NCBI RefSeq assembly: GCF_000424145.1
Contig: NZ_KE384140.1
Location: 1-64,000, forward strand
Reading direction: 5' to 3'
DNA from: Butyrivibrio sp. AC2005
Lineage (GTDB): Bacteria; Bacillota; Clostridia; Lachnospirales; Lachnospiraceae
DNA length: 64,000 nucleotides
The notes beneath the pieces are model-generated. The model searched no databases, was not told the origin of the DNA, and saw nothing but the letters and a program-made list of their open reading frames with translations. A program made the translations under genes and the position numbers. Positions 4,015 to 49,572 of the stretch are shown in pieces (position 1 is the first letter of the stretch; each line of letters opens with the position of its first letter).

Positions 4015-4980
4015 ATGTCAAACAAGAAAATAATAAGTGTTGTTGTACCAACATATAATGAAATTGAAAATGCAGTTCCTGTGGCAAATGCAATTATAGA
4101 TGAGATTACAACTAATTTGCCGGAATATGAATATGAATTGTTGTTTATTGACAACAACTCTAATGATGGAACTCGTGATGCTATAAGGCAGTTATGCGCA
4201 GAAAATAAGAATATAAAAGCTATTTTTAATTTGAAGAACTTTGGACCGGACAATTCGCCTTACTATGGTATGCTACAAGCTACAGGTGATTGTGTGATTT
4301 TATTCACCGCTGATTTTCAGGATCCTTTAGAAATGATTCATAAGATGGTCAGAGAGTGGGAAAAGGGCTATAAAGTTATTACTGCCATAAAGAAATCCAG
4401 CCAGGAAAGTCCTATAATGAGATTCTTTAGGTCAATATACTATAAGGCTATCAGACAGATTTCAAATACAGATATTATTGAACATTTTACGGGATTTGGT
4501 CTATATGATAGATCATTTATGGATGTATTAAGGACTCTTGATGATCCTATTCCTTTTTTGAGAGGAATAGTAGCAGAGTTTAGTGAGAATAGGCTGGAGA
4601 TGCCGTATGAGCAATTGAAGAGACGTGCAGGCAAAAGCCATATTAAATTCTTCGCTTTGTATGATATTGCAATGAGAAGCATTACTTCTTATACAAAAAT
4701 TGGATTAAGATTAGCTACTTTTGTAGGGTTTATAACAGCTATTTTGTCTTTTATAGTGGCAATTATTTATTTTGTTTATAAGCTTACTCACTGGAATACA
4801 TTTAGTGCCGGTATGGCGCCTGTGACAATAGGAATGTTTTTCCTCGGGGCGGTGCAATTAGCGTTTCTTGGATTGCTGGGTGAGTATGTAATGAGCATTA
4901 ATCTAAGAATTATGAACAGGCCCATCGTTATAGAATCAGAACGTATTAATTTCGATAAGAAGGAAGAATCAGATGTTTAA
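4015..4980 (+). CDS. Family 2 glycosyltransferase, GtrB/DPM1-like
   Basis: 321 residues. Residues 1-230 form a GT-A domain beginning ISVVVPTYNE, with FIDNNSNDGT and the metal-binding DFQD motif (Asp100 to Asp103). Two C-terminal transmembrane segments lie at about 235-260 and 270-300 (GMFFLGAVQLAFLGLLGEYV). That layout is typical of polyprenyl-phosphate glycosyltransferases (GtrB, ArnC, YkoT), which move a nucleotide-activated sugar onto undecaprenyl phosphate at the inner face of the membrane. It overlaps the next gene by 8 bases, so the two are translationally coupled. Likely donor: the nucleotide sugar made by the genes that follow (inference). Flipping would be done by the GtrA protein at 13.4 kb. 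Confidence 0.88.
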   Translation: MSNKKIISVVVPTYNEIENAVPVANAIIDEITTNLPEYEYELLFIDNNSNDGTRDAIRQLCAENKNIKAIFNLKNFGPDNSPYYGMLQATGDCVILFTADFQDPLEMIHKMVREWEKGYKVITAIKKSSQESPIMRFFRSIYYKAIRQISNTDIIEHFTGFGLYDRSFMDVLRTLDDPIPFLRGIVAEFSENRLEMPYEQLKRRAGKSHIKFFALYDIAMRSITSYTKIGLRLATFVGFITAILSFIVAIIYFVYKLTHWNTFSAGMAPVTIGMFFLGAVQLAFLGLLGEYVMSINLRIMNRPIVIESERINFDKKEESDV

Positions 4981-5974
4981 GGATAAGCGGGTTCTTGTAA
5001 TAGGAGCAAGTGGACTCATTGGTAGTAATTTGGTTGAGGAATTACTAAAGCAACAGGCAAATGTAGTTGCAATGGGAAGGAATAAGAATAAGCTGGAAGA
5101 AGTATTTTCATGCTGTGGAAATAAAGAGCGGCTTTCTTATTGCGAGGGTAATATTGTTTTAGGATTAGATTCTGAGCTTGGTTATTTTGATTATGTTTTT
5201 CAGGCTGCAAGTCCTATTTCCGGAGCAGAGATAAAGGCATGTCCAATAGATACGATTGATGCAAATCTTCAAGGAGTTCGTAATTGCCTGGATTATATTA
5301 AGTTTATGCGAGATAAAACAGGAAAAAGTGGAAGACTAATAGTTTTTTCTTCTGCAACTGTCTATGGAAATGCTGATAATAATACCATAAGCTTTAAGGA
5401 AGACAATACAAACAATGGTGAGAATCTTTCTGCACCGGCTATTGCGTATTCTGAATCAAAAAGAATGATAGAAGTGATTGCCGGGGCTTATGTAAAGCAA
5501 TATGATTTGGATGTTTGTATAATAAGACCTAGTTATGTCTACGGATATACTTATAATATGCCTAATACTGCTTTTTATGAATTTATTAAAAAGGCACTTA
5601 ATGGAGAGAATATAGTTATTAATGCTGATAAGATGTCTAAAAGGGATAATATTTATGTAAAGGATGCTGTCAGTGGAATAATTAAGGTCGCCGTTAGTGG
5701 AGCAAAAGGTGAAGCATATAATATCTCAACTAATGGAGAAGGTAATAATTATTTGTCTGCATGTGAGATGGCAGAGATTATTAAAGAGTGTGTATGTACC
5801 GAACTTGATAAAAATATTTCGGTTATTTATTCAAAACAAAAATGTGAAAGTACACCGGGAGTTTTGCTGAACAATGATAAGCTAAAGAATCTTGGATGGG
5901 ATATGAAAACAGATGCCCAAACCGGGATATATGAGACCGTAAAAGAGTATTATGAAAATGAGGTTTTTACATGA
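4973..5974 (+). CDS. NAD-dependent epimerase/dehydratase (extended SDR)
   Basis: 333 residues with an N-terminal Rossmann motif GASGLIG (residues 11-17), an SSATVYG stretch carrying the catalytic Ser/Thr, and the SDR pair Tyr159-x3-Lys163 in AYSESK. The RPSYVYG segment is typical of nucleotide-sugar epimerases and reductases. It probably reduces, epimerises or dehydrates a nucleotide-bound keto sugar. ATG at 4973 lies inside the end of the glycosyltransferase gene, and the next gene starts 4 bases before its stop, so it is part of a tightly coupled operon. In CDP-dideoxyhexose pathways an SDR of this kind makes the final C4 reduction or epimerisation; that role here is inference. Confidence 0.85.
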   Translation: MFKDKRVLVIGASGLIGSNLVEELLKQQANVVAMGRNKNKLEEVFSCCGNKERLSYCEGNIVLGLDSELGYFDYVFQAASPISGAEIKACPIDTIDANLQGVRNCLDYIKFMRDKTGKSGRLIVFSSATVYGNADNNTISFKEDNTNNGENLSAPAIAYSESKRMIEVIAGAYVKQYDLDVCIIRPSYVYGYTYNMPNTAFYEFIKKALNGENIVINADKMSKRDNIYVKDAVSGIIKVAVSGAKGEAYNISTNGEGNNYLSACEMAEIIKECVCTELDKNISVIYSKQKCESTPGVLLNNDKLKNLGWDMKTDAQTGIYETVKEYYENEVFT

Positions 5975-38996: not shown

Positions 38997-39131
38997 GTTT
39001 CATAGGAGATTCTAAGTTCGAGAGCAATCTCGATAAGTGATCTGTACACTCTGCGAGAGGAATATGTTACAACTTTTTATGGAAGCTTAATTCTGAAAAA
39101 GATGGAAAGAGTGGTTAGAAAAAGATACAAT

Positions 39132-39209
39132 TAAAGAGAAGTAGCAAGATAACTAAAGAGAAGTAGCAAGATAACTAAAGAGAAGTAGTAAGACAATTAA
39201 AGAGTAGTT
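39132..39209. repeat. Tandem 22-bp repeat, 3.5 copies
   Basis: Units start at 39132, 39154, 39176 and 39198 (partial); the unit begins TAAAGAGAAGTAG. The first two are identical, the third has three changes. The rest of the 350-base gap from 38997 to 39350 is AT-rich without a gene, apart from this repeat and the hairpin at 39284. Confidence 0.85.
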
Positions 39210-39283
39210 TAAAAATACAATTGATGTTATAGGTTAGGGATATATTTAAATAGCATCAAATAGATTATGTAAATATTTAAAGT

Positions 39284-39350: not shown

Positions 39351-39659
39351 ATGACATTAAACAATATATTAGAACAATCAGGAATTTCACTTTTATTATT
39401 TGTAATTTGTGCTTATTATGCTTTCAGACTTCTTGTTCTGAAGGACTACAAGGCAGTCCGTGGCAAAACGGAGAAGCCACCGAAAGACGTTGAAGGCTAT
39501 TGCAAGGCAGCAGGCCTTGTTATTGTATTCTTCGGGATTTCCACACTTGTCATGGCAGGTCTTGTGCTCGTAAGCCCTGTTGCAGGCCTTGTTCAGATCG
39601 TTGCCTGCACAGCAATCATGGTTGTTATGTGGAAGAAAGTAACAGATAAGTATGCGTGA
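39351..39659 (+). CDS. Small membrane protein of unknown function (DUF3784-like)
   Basis: 102 residues with three hydrophobic segments (about 11-30, 52-70 and 75-93) and a charged loop between the first two. The overall pattern resembles DUF3784-type small membrane proteins, but the match is not firm. GAAAGG lies before the ATG at 39351. Codon use in its second half is host-like. It stands alone between the mgl terminator and the structured repeat region, with no evident operon partner. Confidence 0.6.
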   Translation: MTLNNILEQSGISLLLFVICAYYAFRLLVLKDYKAVRGKTEKPPKDVEGYCKAAGLVIVFFGISTLVMAGLVLVSPVAGLVQIVACTAIMVVMWKKVTDKYA

Positions 39660-39664
39660 GATAA

Positions 39665-40141
39665 TTGTACGCGAGTGGGGTGAATATTAGCAGGGAGATA
39701 TACCCCGCAAGCCAGGCTAATTCATCATATAATAATGAAAACATAAGAAACGGGTGAACAAGTATAAGCTGAAATTCACCCATAGCAAGATAAAATTTGT
39801 TACTGGTTGAATAAACTGCTTACCAAGTTCAACTACAAATAAGATTTGTACGCGAATGGGGTGAATAGTAGCAGGAAGCTATAGCCCGCAAGCCATACGA
39901 TTTCATCCTATAATAAAAATCTGCAGAAAAGGGTGAACAAGCAGAAGATGAAATTCACCCATAGCAAGATAAAATTTGTTACTGGTTGAATAAGCTGATT
40001 ACCAAGTTCAACCACAAATAAGATTTGTACGCGAGTGGGGTGAATAGTAGCAGGAAGCTATAGCCCGCAAGCCGGGCGATTTAATCCTATAGTAAGGAAA
40101 TATGCAGAAACGGGTGAACAAGTAGAATAAAATAGTCACCC
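39665..40141. repeat. Structured tandem repeat element A, about 180-bp unit, 2.6 copies
   Basis: Units begin with TTGTACGCGA at 39665, 39846 and 40025 (periods 181 and 179). Each has CCGCAAGC 40 bases after the unit start. Around these cores the word GGGTGAA recurs in both orientations and forms hairpins: 39752-39758/39775-39781, 39931-39937/39954-39960 and, partly, 40112-40118/40136-40141. A second hairpin GGTTGAA/TTCAAC(C) is at 39805-39811/39828-39833 and 39984-39990/40007-40013. No reading frame of note covers it. A related element is at 49.1-49.57 kb. It fills the gap before the regulator gene. Confidence 0.8.
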
Positions 40142-40233
40142 AAAAAACATGAGATAGAAAAAGTGGATACATAATCTTCAAAAAATAATAGCCAATACAA
40201 CTCACGCCCCCAAAGCGTTTGGAGAATAACTAT

Positions 40234-41826
40234 ATGAAATACTCAGTACTACTTGTGGATGACGAAGAAGAGGTCACCCAGGCGATAAAGAGAAAACTAA
40301 ATTGGGAAGAGATGGGCTTCGAGGAGCCAAGATACGCAAGGAACGGGCTTGAGGCTCTGGAAGTGTCGGAGGATCAGGCTCCGGACGTTGTCATGACAGA
40401 CATACAGATGCCCTACATGACAGGACTTGAGCTGTCGAAAAAGCTAAAGGAACTTTACCCCGGAATCAGAATCATTATCTTCTCCGGTTATGATGAATTC
40501 GAATATGCCAAAGAAGCAATAAGACTTGAGGCAGAGGAATACATCCTAAAGCCCATAGACGCAGGGGAACTCAAGAGCGTATTTGAAAGAATCCATGAAT
40601 CACTTGATAAAGAGCGCGATGAGAGACAAAACCTTGAAAAGCTGAAAAGTTACTACATGGAGTCACTTCCCCTTTTGCAGGAGGACTTCTTTGCGGCGCT
40701 TCTTGATGGAAAGCTTGAGGAAAAGAGAATTCCCAAATACCTTGAAGACTACAGTATAAAGCTTGATGGACCATTCTTCTGTGTAGCCATATGTCACATT
40801 AGTACATCGGAGCTTCCGGAAGGTGTAAGCCACGTGCTTCTCTCGGTTTCGGTAAGGAGGCTTGCTGAGGAGAGAGTTGATTCTTCATATAACGCAAAGT
40901 TCTTCTCATACCTTGGAAGCACAGTCATGATTGCACAGCTCACTTCCACGGAGGCCAAGACAAAATTCACTGATGACTGTGACAGATTCTGCAGACTTGC
41001 AAGAACTGTCTGCAAAGCCAATGTTACAATAGGAATAGGCGAAATTGTCGGAAGTGTGGAAGATCTGAAAACTTCTTATGATGGTGCAAAGGACGCTGTT
41101 TCATACCGAGTTCTCTACGGAACAACAAAGGCCATAAACATCTCTGAGATTGCGCCGCCTGTGGTAAAGCAGACTGTGGACCTTGAGGCTGACCTTCATG
41201 AGATTTTCAAGAAGATAAAAATGGAGGATGAGGCTGCTCTCGGAAAATCGGTTGAAGACTACATAACAAGCGGAACGTCAGTTGACATGTCAGTGTCGGA
41301 ATACAAATTTTTCGTGCTTGAAATGATAAGCGAGATTTACAGATTCATGCGCGGCAATCAGCTAAATACTGATGAAATCTTCGATGCGGAAAACGACGCC
41401 TATGACAAGTTATCACAGCTTGAAAAGACAGAGCTCATGACGTGGCTTAAGGAAACCTGCGCAAAGCTCCAGAATATGCTCCGTGAAAAAAGAACCGACA
41501 CTACAAAGTCATTTGTAAATAAAGCCATAGATTATGTTGCGGATCACTATGCCGATCAGGATTTGTCAGTGGACAGAATCTGCTCTGAGCTATCCGTGAG
41601 CAGTGCCTATTTTTCAACAGTTTTTAAGAAGGAGACAGGAAAAACCTTTGTGACTTATCTTACGGATTACCGCATGGAGAAGGCGCTTCAGCTCCTTATA
41701 GAAAAAAATGAAAAAACCTACGTAATAGCACAACAGGTAGGTTACGGAGACCCTAATTATTTCAGCTATGTTTTCAAAAAACAATTCGGAACCTCACCAT
41801 CTAAATACAAGCAGGGACTATCTTAG
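40234..41826 (+). CDS. Response regulator, YesN/AraC-type
   Basis: 530 residues from ATG 40234, with GGAG ten bases upstream (a TTG five codons earlier overlaps that site). Receiver domain with Asp9/Asp10, phospho-acceptor Asp56 in VMTDIQMPYMTG, and LKPIDAGEL. Central YesN-type region, then the C-terminal AraC domain (LSVDRICSELSVSSAYFSTVFKK and GYGDPNYFSYVFKK). It starts the regulatory operon beside mglBAC and probably controls it. It is the counterpart of the regulator at 25675, but here the gene order is regulator first, then kinase, then binding proteins. The kinase frame begins inside its last 59 bases. Confidence 0.92.
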   Translation: MKYSVLLVDDEEEVTQAIKRKLNWEEMGFEEPRYARNGLEALEVSEDQAPDVVMTDIQMPYMTGLELSKKLKELYPGIRIIIFSGYDEFEYAKEAIRLEAEEYILKPIDAGELKSVFERIHESLDKERDERQNLEKLKSYYMESLPLLQEDFFAALLDGKLEEKRIPKYLEDYSIKLDGPFFCVAICHISTSELPEGVSHVLLSVSVRRLAEERVDSSYNAKFFSYLGSTVMIAQLTSTEAKTKFTDDCDRFCRLARTVCKANVTIGIGEIVGSVEDLKTSYDGAKDAVSYRVLYGTTKAINISEIAPPVVKQTVDLEADLHEIFKKIKMEDEAALGKSVEDYITSGTSVDMSVSEYKFFVLEMISEIYRFMRGNQLNTDEIFDAENDAYDKLSQLEKTELMTWLKETCAKLQNMLREKRTDTTKSFVNKAIDYVADHYADQDLSVDRICSELSVSSAYFSTVFKKETGKTFVTYLTDYRMEKALQLLIEKNEKTYVIAQQVGYGDPNYFSYVFKKQFGTSPSKYKQGLS

Positions 41827-45738: not shown

Positions 45739-45887
45739 GGCGGTTATAAAAGTAGATGTTTTTTCTGCTGAAATGAAGCTGGCTTAGGATTATGTGCAAG
45801 GATTAATGGGGAAAAGCTTAATACTGAGATGGATAAGAAACTTAAATCCTGAGATGGATAAGGAAAATTTAAGCCTGAGGTTTGTTT

Positions 45888-49096: not shown

Positions 49097-49572
49097 TTAT
49101 TACGTCAAATAGTACTTTTTAGAGAGAAATGGTGTAACCCTCAAAAGGCTGTTATTCCCAAAGATTGATTTGTTCGCGAATAGACGTAACTCATTTAGGA
49201 AGTGTGTTCCCGCAAGCCTGTGTAATTCAGTCAACGGAGTCGAAAATGTCTATAATGGTCTACCTAAAAAAGGGGGCGGTAGACCAATGAGATAATTTTA
49301 CTGTCAATTGACGTAAAATGCATAGAATCAGATTTTTTCCAGCTCTGAACATTTACGTCAATAACTGGCAGAATTCAAGTGTTGGAATAATGGCTAAAAT
49401 TCGTTTAAGTCTATATTAAGAATTGTTCGCGAGTTGACTTAACTCCTGCAGGAAATATTATTGCCGCAAGCTAAACTGTGTCAGTCAAAAAATACAATAA
49501 TAGGCTTGTTGGGCTATCACCTAAATATCGATTACGTCAACACAAGAATATTATGAAGTATTGACGTAATCC
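49097..49572. repeat. Structured repeat element B, related to element A
   Basis: Two core copies begin TTGTTCGCGA at 49170 and 49423 (254 bases apart), each with CCGCAAGC 40-41 bases on, as in element A. The locus word here is TTGACGTAA: in both orientations at 49100-49108, 49183-49189, 49308-49317/49352-49361 (a 10-bp inverted repeat) and 49530-49540/49561-49571 (an 11-bp perfect stem), with variants at 49434-49442/49483-49488. A further hairpin GGTCTACC/GGTAGACC lies at 49257-49285. From 49573 to 49891 the DNA is A-rich, low complexity, and no gene or clear promoter is seen. Confidence 0.75.

Follow-up and report, generated by a model that had tools for sequence, protein, structure and literature searches.

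The usual view of REP and BIME repeats is that they are palindromes which a transposase mobilises. Two other kinds of short intergenic sequence come close in outline: MITEs, which are short non-coding dispersed copies missing at orthologous sites of relatives, and the intergenic mosaic elements of Neisseria, where a short inverted repeat of constant sequence, dRS3, is arrayed with variable stretches in between. BIME and REP arrays are described, in the parts of the source drawn on here, as short motifs clustered between genes, with alternating orientation, regular distance, and a mosaic build (PMC2817692). Excerpts of a second account present the GTAG- and CGTC-tagged REPs as dispersed palindrome families, several types per genome, the CGTC repeats having no dedicated transposase and consisting of 8-9 bp stems, loops of 4-5 bases, and an unpaired CGTC end (PMC3733652). 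Those excerpts place REP/BIME-type repeats mostly in Proteobacteria, and the main text mentions neither Firmicutes nor Clostridi- (0 occurrences; PMC3733652).

The repeats described here were found in Butyrivibrio sp. AC2005, in a stretch of 64,000 nucleotides referred to below as the window. With BIMEs they share an intergenic position, alternating orientation, and regular spacing; with MITEs they share the existence of sites without a copy in relatives.

Elements of the window and their family in the same genome

The window holds two such elements, A and B (Table 1). In element A the core starts are separated by steps of 181 and then 179 bp, CCGCAAGC begins exactly 40 bases past the core start in all three units, and GGGTGAA/TTCACCC together with GGTTGAA/TTCAACC recurs in both directions over the whole element. 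Element B carries GACGTAA/TTACGTC, again in both directions throughout. A sequence-only reading had already pointed to the three cores with their period and box distance, to the two words in both orientations, and to the same core nine kilobases away with GACGTAA as the recurring word; all were present as it had described them. The window has two further repeats. Upstream of the DUF3784-like gene, a 22-bp unit (AACTAAAGAGAAGTAGCAAGAT-like) stands in tandem (39129-39216), and the gap before an 8-oxoguanine glycosylase-like gene contains a direct duplication of 25 bp with 84% identity (45813-45862).

Table 1. Coordinates of the two elements, their parts, and the neighbours of element A within the window
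Feature	Position	Strand	Remarks
Element A	39665..40141	+	three tandem units, GGGTGAA subfamily, period ~180; between DUF3784-like gene and response-regulator gene
Core 1 of element A	39665..39712	+	TTGTACGCGA (T box), word GGGTGAA, CCGCAAGC at +40
Core 2 of element A	39846..39893	+	
Core 3 of element A	40025..40072	+	
Plain word pair GGGTGAA ... TTCACCC of element A	39752..39781	+	repeated in following units
Plain word pair GGTTGAA ... TTCAAC of element A	39805..39833	+	
Element B	49100..49569	+	one of 14 GACGTAA composites of ~460 bp; between thiamine pyrophosphokinase and GH31 genes
Core 1 of element B	49170..49217	+	spacing 40
Core 2 of element B	49423..49471	+	spacing 41
Upstream neighbour of A	39351..39659	+	102-aa protein, weak DUF3784 match below Pfam cut-off; outside element
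Downstream neighbour of A	40219..41826	+	response regulator with AraC-type HTH; outside element

This pattern far exceeds chance in the window's own genome (G000; 5.13 Mb in 74 contigs), where TTGTWCGCGA-N25..35-CCGCAAGC has 15 exact matches and a reversed-pattern control has none. It is close to certain that a dispersed, non-coding, intergenic repeat family exists here. A 3-kb query around one copy leads to 17 places in G000, of which 14, the query included, are full GACGTAA composites of about 460 bp and 3 are short. The composites align end to end with pairwise identities of 68-84% (mean 73%). Their mean pairwise identity is 0.87 in the 148 columns of words and boxes and 0.67 in the other 310, an excess that the mask did not reach in any of its 457 circular shifts. 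This test is partly circular, since the alignment had already been viewed when the consensus was used to define the mask.

Two boxes are constant in the family, T (TTGTWCGCG) and CCCGC. Near both ends of the composites stand TTACGTCA words in the same direction, and a reversed T box (up to two mismatches) follows just past the 3' end in 9 of the 14. A coding remnant at this end was considered and dropped: translation gave no consistent frame, the start being misplaced in several copies. Terminal inverted repeats were not demonstrated, and informal inspection of the copies revealed no target-site duplication.

The recurrent word, on the other hand, does change while the core stays constant, as the sequence-only reading had stated, although its claim that the word is specific to each locus is weakened, because words are common to groups of loci. 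Two classes exist in G000. The GGRTGAA class comprises element A (C13, 39.6 kb), a copy on C26 of the same GGGTGAA type, and a copy at 75.5 kb of C13 with the related form GGATGAA; GAC-type words occupy the 14 composites and other sites.

How are these words laid out? One rule is common to elements A and B: the direction of the word alternates. In composites, the distance from an inverted word to the forward word after it is about 30 bp (28-32), and that from a forward word to the next inverted one is about 21-24 or 42-47 bp. Word centres lie at 17 (inverted), 97 (forward), 143 (inverted), 224 (forward), 270 (inverted), 322 (inverted), 350 (forward), 397 (inverted), and 449 (inverted), and those of a second class (GGTCTACC-like) at 47, 173, 300, and 427; they are constant in most copies, weaker words being missed in some. 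Among the long forward-to-inverted steps are those of the T cores, which enclose CCGCAAGC, and a single one, from 224 to 270, that lacks this box. Element A and the C26 copy show identical lattice numbers, with GGGTGAA replacing GACGTAA. Steps between words of the same direction (52-53, 63-64, 126-127, and about 180) would correspond to nearly whole turns of the double helix.

Several G000 loci show variants of the element or further repeats next to it. At about 69 kb of C13 (about 4965-5215 of the extracted stretch), four tandem copies with 62-bp steps keep the TTGTTCGCG and CCCGC boxes, but CTCCCTGGC replaces the word, as though tandem growth did not require it. Near 216 kb of C2, a single core precedes a tandem array with another self-complementary word (CAGGGTAGTTGTTG ... 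ACAACAAAT), and on C17 and at about 80 kb of C13 minisatellites with a period of about 33 bp and TAGACTT-like words directly adjoin composites.

Inverted words and the question of RNA structure

Do the inverted words act as the stems of an RNA? A leader, an attenuator, or a non-coding RNA with the word as its hairpin stem would account for the complementary words inside each element, and the sequence-only reading had proposed that the arms co-vary. The arms are indeed complementary in part, but inverted words give such complementarity with or without a stem. Covariation was assessed in two alignments. The first contained 100 units preselected for T and word within two mismatches and for a CCCGC-like box; units that failed were dropped (the G005 matches, from the sister species introduced below, initially numbered 77), and the limited word variation in this alignment follows from that preselection. 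For the upstream inverted word paired with the forward word, together with a short stem of the box, 63.1% of the cells were paired against 63.5% in shuffles, the covariation score was 0.091 against 0.100, and RNAalifold predicted no pairs. Pairing was above that of slid controls (25-38%), and pairs changed on both sides numbered 12 against 9.7, a value reached by 12 of 500 shuffles. In the second alignment, of the 14 composites, four arm pairs were 78.4% paired against 77.8% in shuffles (60 of 500 shuffles), far above slid controls (26-37%), with covariation of 0.031 against 0.026 (80 of 500); a fifth arm pair gave the same picture. Three positions of helix 1 are mismatched in all 14 copies, and one position of helix 3 in 12.

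Folding energies seem at first sight more favourable to a transcript. RNAalifold assigns the composites -84.0, against a mean of -51.4 (sd 5.8) in 30 column shuffles, but the other strand behaves alike (-83.5 against -49.2, sd 4.4), and since the pairs do not co-vary either, we read this excess as the inverted words themselves. Among 11 elements (7 of the 14 composites, A, the C26 copy, and two G005 arrays; 25 shuffles each), element A has z-scores of -5.1 in sense and -2.9 in antisense; the ten others range from +1.5 to -4.1, so that the scatter over all 11 runs from +1.5 to -5.1, and no strand is consistently the stronger (forward in 5, reverse in 6). Rfam gave no match at the gathering score in the window.

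The gene context can be weighed in the same way. By crude frame calls, 11 of the 17 G000 loci lie in the direction of co-directional neighbours and 2 against it, 3 lie between convergent genes, and 1 in a divergent gap. That 11 of 13 copies between co-directional genes are in sense would suit a transcript, whereas the antisense, convergent, and divergent copies would not. On the covariation tests in both alignments, RNAalifold on the units, and the folding energies, structured RNA was rejected as the main reading: with arms that co-vary no more than shuffles and mismatches fixed in 14 of 14 composites, the prediction fails, and we hold such an RNA to be improbable. We take each word to be a site conserved in its own right, its inverted-repeat arrangement being incidental, and the element is probably one of DNA and not of RNA.

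The flanking genes with a Pfam match are varied and mostly ordinary. In a Pfam scan of 57 proteins from the window and from around the copies (7 + 40 + 10), those with a match are mostly metabolic, transport, and regulatory proteins, and many are without one; the matches include one Y1 transposase and one protein of the PD-(D/E)XK transposase family. A gene common to the flanks was sought and discarded: BLASTP of the flanking frames joined an orthologous locus pair, small frames overlapping the arrays, and one pair of frames of 362-467 aa, with nothing common to the loci, and Pfam likewise gave no family shared across the flanks.

Distribution and orthologous sites

The sequence-only reading had suggested a search of related genomes, and further copies were found. 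In an initial set of 61 related genomes, the core pattern TTGTWCGCGA-N25..35-CCGCAAGC is present in 2: G000 itself and a sister species of the same genus, G005, in which TTGTTCGCGNNTAGACNTAA (up to one mismatch) occurs 55 times against 0 for the control. The G005 copies are largely tandem arrays with steps of 63-64 bp, several with halves in opposite direction, and the forward-to-inverted step in their 64-bp units is about 34 bp. A sequence-only model of a 76-nt module (R1), built from 100 units of G000 and G005, has matches in 4 of the 79 genomes of the genus set: 44 in G000 and 68 in G005, counts that are partly by construction since both supplied units, 3 in G020, and 2 in G011. The 396 other genomes of an even sample of the family, which spans 334 genera, gave no R1 match, under filters that, in both the genus and the family search, were strict enough to lose weak matches and would miss copies without a T box.

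G020 and G011 are weak members with other words, read by eye as TAGACTGAA/GAGTCTAT and TTGACTTAAG/AAGTCTA, respectively. Neither genome was used to derive the period, and their direct-repeat spectra peak at 64/128 (G020) and 63-64/127 (G011). In the ten regions pooled for this analysis, inverted 6-mer pairs number 410, compared with 252 after block shuffling, but hardly any one inverted distance is prominent: the fullest bin has 11 pairs and the control maximum is 10. A loose-pattern scan of genome contigs returned at least 117 stretches, and the 80 loci listed look like chance coding matches without recurring words. A plasmid collection gave no matches for elements A and B, and viral contigs none for three patterns; a phage collection, searched with element B only, gave eight Pelagibacter phage records, in short matches over 8-11% of the query that are probably due to chance. 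To judge from these searches, the family appears restricted to one clade of a few related bacteria.

Tandem periods of 63-64 and about 180 raise another question: could slippage, unequal exchange, and template switching keep the words alike in a neutral mosaic minisatellite, with no protein involved? In six G000 loci, inverted 6-mers are indeed shared a little more often inside one locus (611 per million pairs) than across loci (492), but in five G005 loci the excess is absent (508 vs 551). Moreover, the two boxes, T and CCCGC, are constant across loci and species, and the columns of the words are kept although the copies are only about 73% alike. A purely neutral origin seems unlikely to us.

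Comparison of sites adds a historical dimension. Three intergenic sites have both flanks in place and are occupied in G000 and G005: that between the DUF3784-like and response-regulator genes (element A), that between the thiamine pyrophosphokinase and GH31 genes (element B), and the C26/C18 site. The elements do not align along their length. At sites A and C26, G000 has GGGTGAA-type words, and G005 has GACGTAA in the forward slots and GTTCAACC-like words in the inverted ones; at site B both species have GAC-type words, mixed with others in G005. Possibly the ancestor carried a mixture of both word classes, which then sorted between the lineages.

Other sites are short or free of the element in relatives. 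The gap between the matched genes of site A is about 573 bp in G000 and 586 bp in G005; of 24 other loci found, the six closest were inspected, and five of these have short gaps of about 4-118 bp (about 75 bp in G020, 14 in G090, 35 in G030, 117 in G023, and 4 in G067). Site B measures about 107 bp in all in G020. The composite on C17 is a clean case of a site occupied in one species, with 1384 bp in G000, about 112 in G005, and about 217 in G020, and the site at 80.7 kb of C13 measures about 59 bp in G020. The site of the C1 composite is about 90 bp long in G020 and holds other sequence without an R1 match in G005, namely a second, unrelated dispersed repeat (TTGCAAGATGTCCGGGGGACATCTGC...) that also recurs near the G005 arrays. 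For five more composites a single flank was found in G005, with no R1 match and few isolated words in the stretch examined, so that these cases cannot separate insertion from rearrangement. C12 was rejected as a site occupied in both species: its element follows the shared gene in G000, and in G005 the stretch right after that gene is element-free, with arrays beyond the next gene.

A PHP-domain transport operon (68-76 kb of C13 in G000, 119-129 kb of C3 in G005) has elements at both ends in both species. The order in G000 is X - element - operon - element - Y - Z, and in G005 X - element - operon inverted - element - Z inverted - element - Y, with elements at 3 of 3 rearranged junctions. Recombination between inverted copies would explain this one case, and an inversion flanked in this way raises the possibility that inversions are seeded by the repeats.

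A putative array of DNA-binding sites and the known systems

What, then, could these repeats be? With the chances about evenly divided, we see in them a clade-restricted, BIME-like mosaic repeat that forms an array of putative DNA-binding sites and has dispersed as a non-autonomous DNA element. One or two sequence-specific DNA-binding proteins would recognise the words and the T box and might assemble along the lattice; an enzyme supplied in trans would have copied the array into new intergenic sites, and the copies would keep only the sites that the protein needs. The two word classes may represent two specificities, or two subfamilies sorted differently between lineages. Whether a dedicated binding protein exists is, in our estimate, nearly a matter of equal chances. 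That it forms the lattice, with the word changing between lineages and subfamilies around fixed spacing and two fixed boxes, is a narrower proposal that we put forward tentatively and consider rather unlikely. Of the earlier proposals, a paired target/recognition system comes close to this reading, and the structured RNA offered beside it was not borne out.

The site array is supported by the 15 core matches against 0, the identity of the composites, the conservation of words and boxes, and the lattice shared by the GGGTGAA and GACGTAA forms, as well as by the 64-bp steps of G005, the periods of G020 and G011, the lack of covariation, the element-free sites in relatives, and the ordinary, varied nature of the flanking genes with a Pfam match. 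Against it stand the outcome of the searches, which found no binding protein or transposase and demonstrated no target-site duplication, the sense bias of 11 in 13, which could hint at a transcript role or a replication-strand effect, and the folding and pairing values given above (element A z of -5.1/-2.9, RNAalifold energies of the composites beyond shuffles, 12 vs 9.7 double changes). Moreover, from one subfamily to another the forward and inverted words change in concert, as they also would if pairing were their function.

Two kinds of mobile or recombining palindrome have to be set beside the site array. Alternating orientation and tandem clusters recall BIMEs, and the elements might be REP/REPIN-like hairpins of single-stranded DNA that a Y1 (IS200-type) transposase mobilises in trans; of six Y1 genes in G005, two are near arrays, at distances of about 0.2 and 1.8 kb. 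Yet the invariant columns of both alignments contain no GTAG or CGTC tag at the stem foot, the arms are imperfect with fixed mismatches, none of the six Y1 matches in G000 is on a contig with an R1 match, and Y1 occurs in 47 of 61 genomes against 4 of 79 for the elements. Y1 as a partner was left unsupported, and hairpins of this kind are quite unlikely. At 281-283 kb of C2 in G005, an IS200-type Y1 gene and then an apparent second transposon gene adjoin a lattice array.

An integron-like attC array, or another array of tyrosine-recombinase sites, would likewise show imperfect inverted word pairs in tandem, and inspection finds AAC/GTT-like ends in places. The attC consensus is RYYYAAC, which words such as GACGTAAC do not fit; the 64-bp units hold no cassettes or genes, and no integrase is found among the neighbours with a Pfam match, many neighbours being without one. 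This origin is highly improbable.

If a lattice-forming protein is real, the family would be a new nucleoprotein system whose specificity switching is visible at orthologous sites, and if the protein reads the lattice, a natural series for the joint change of DNA-binding specificity and a dispersed site array. If there is no protein, the family is a clear case of mosaic-repeat evolution and of rearrangement of the host chromosome. In either event, spacing and two boxes are conserved while the word changes, and the orthologous sites of two sister species show the change directly.

Within the published descriptions, of which titles and the openings of abstracts name no such family, the nearest relatives can now be compared. 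BIME and REP arrays are built of 20-40 bp palindromes with a tetranucleotide tag, whereas here there are words of 7-10 bp, two constant boxes, a 64-bp lattice, fixed arm mismatches, and no linked RAYT found; since it fails the tag and transposase features tested, the family is not filed as REP, though BIME-like in its working. Like the GTAG- and CGTC-tagged REPs, as far as the excerpts describe them, it consists of dispersed repeats with several types in one genome; unlike the CGTC repeats of the same excerpts, it has CGTC inside the word, and its word pairs enclose longer loops. From MITEs it differs in that the conserved parts lie inside, as a lattice, with neither terminal inverted repeats nor target-site duplication demonstrated. 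It resembles the Neisseria dRS3 elements in joining arrays of a constant short repeat with variable stretches between genes, and differs from them in sequence, in spacing, and in lacking phage-site evidence. Set beside these systems, largely through the portions of their descriptions cited here, the family is apparently an undescribed mosaic repeat.
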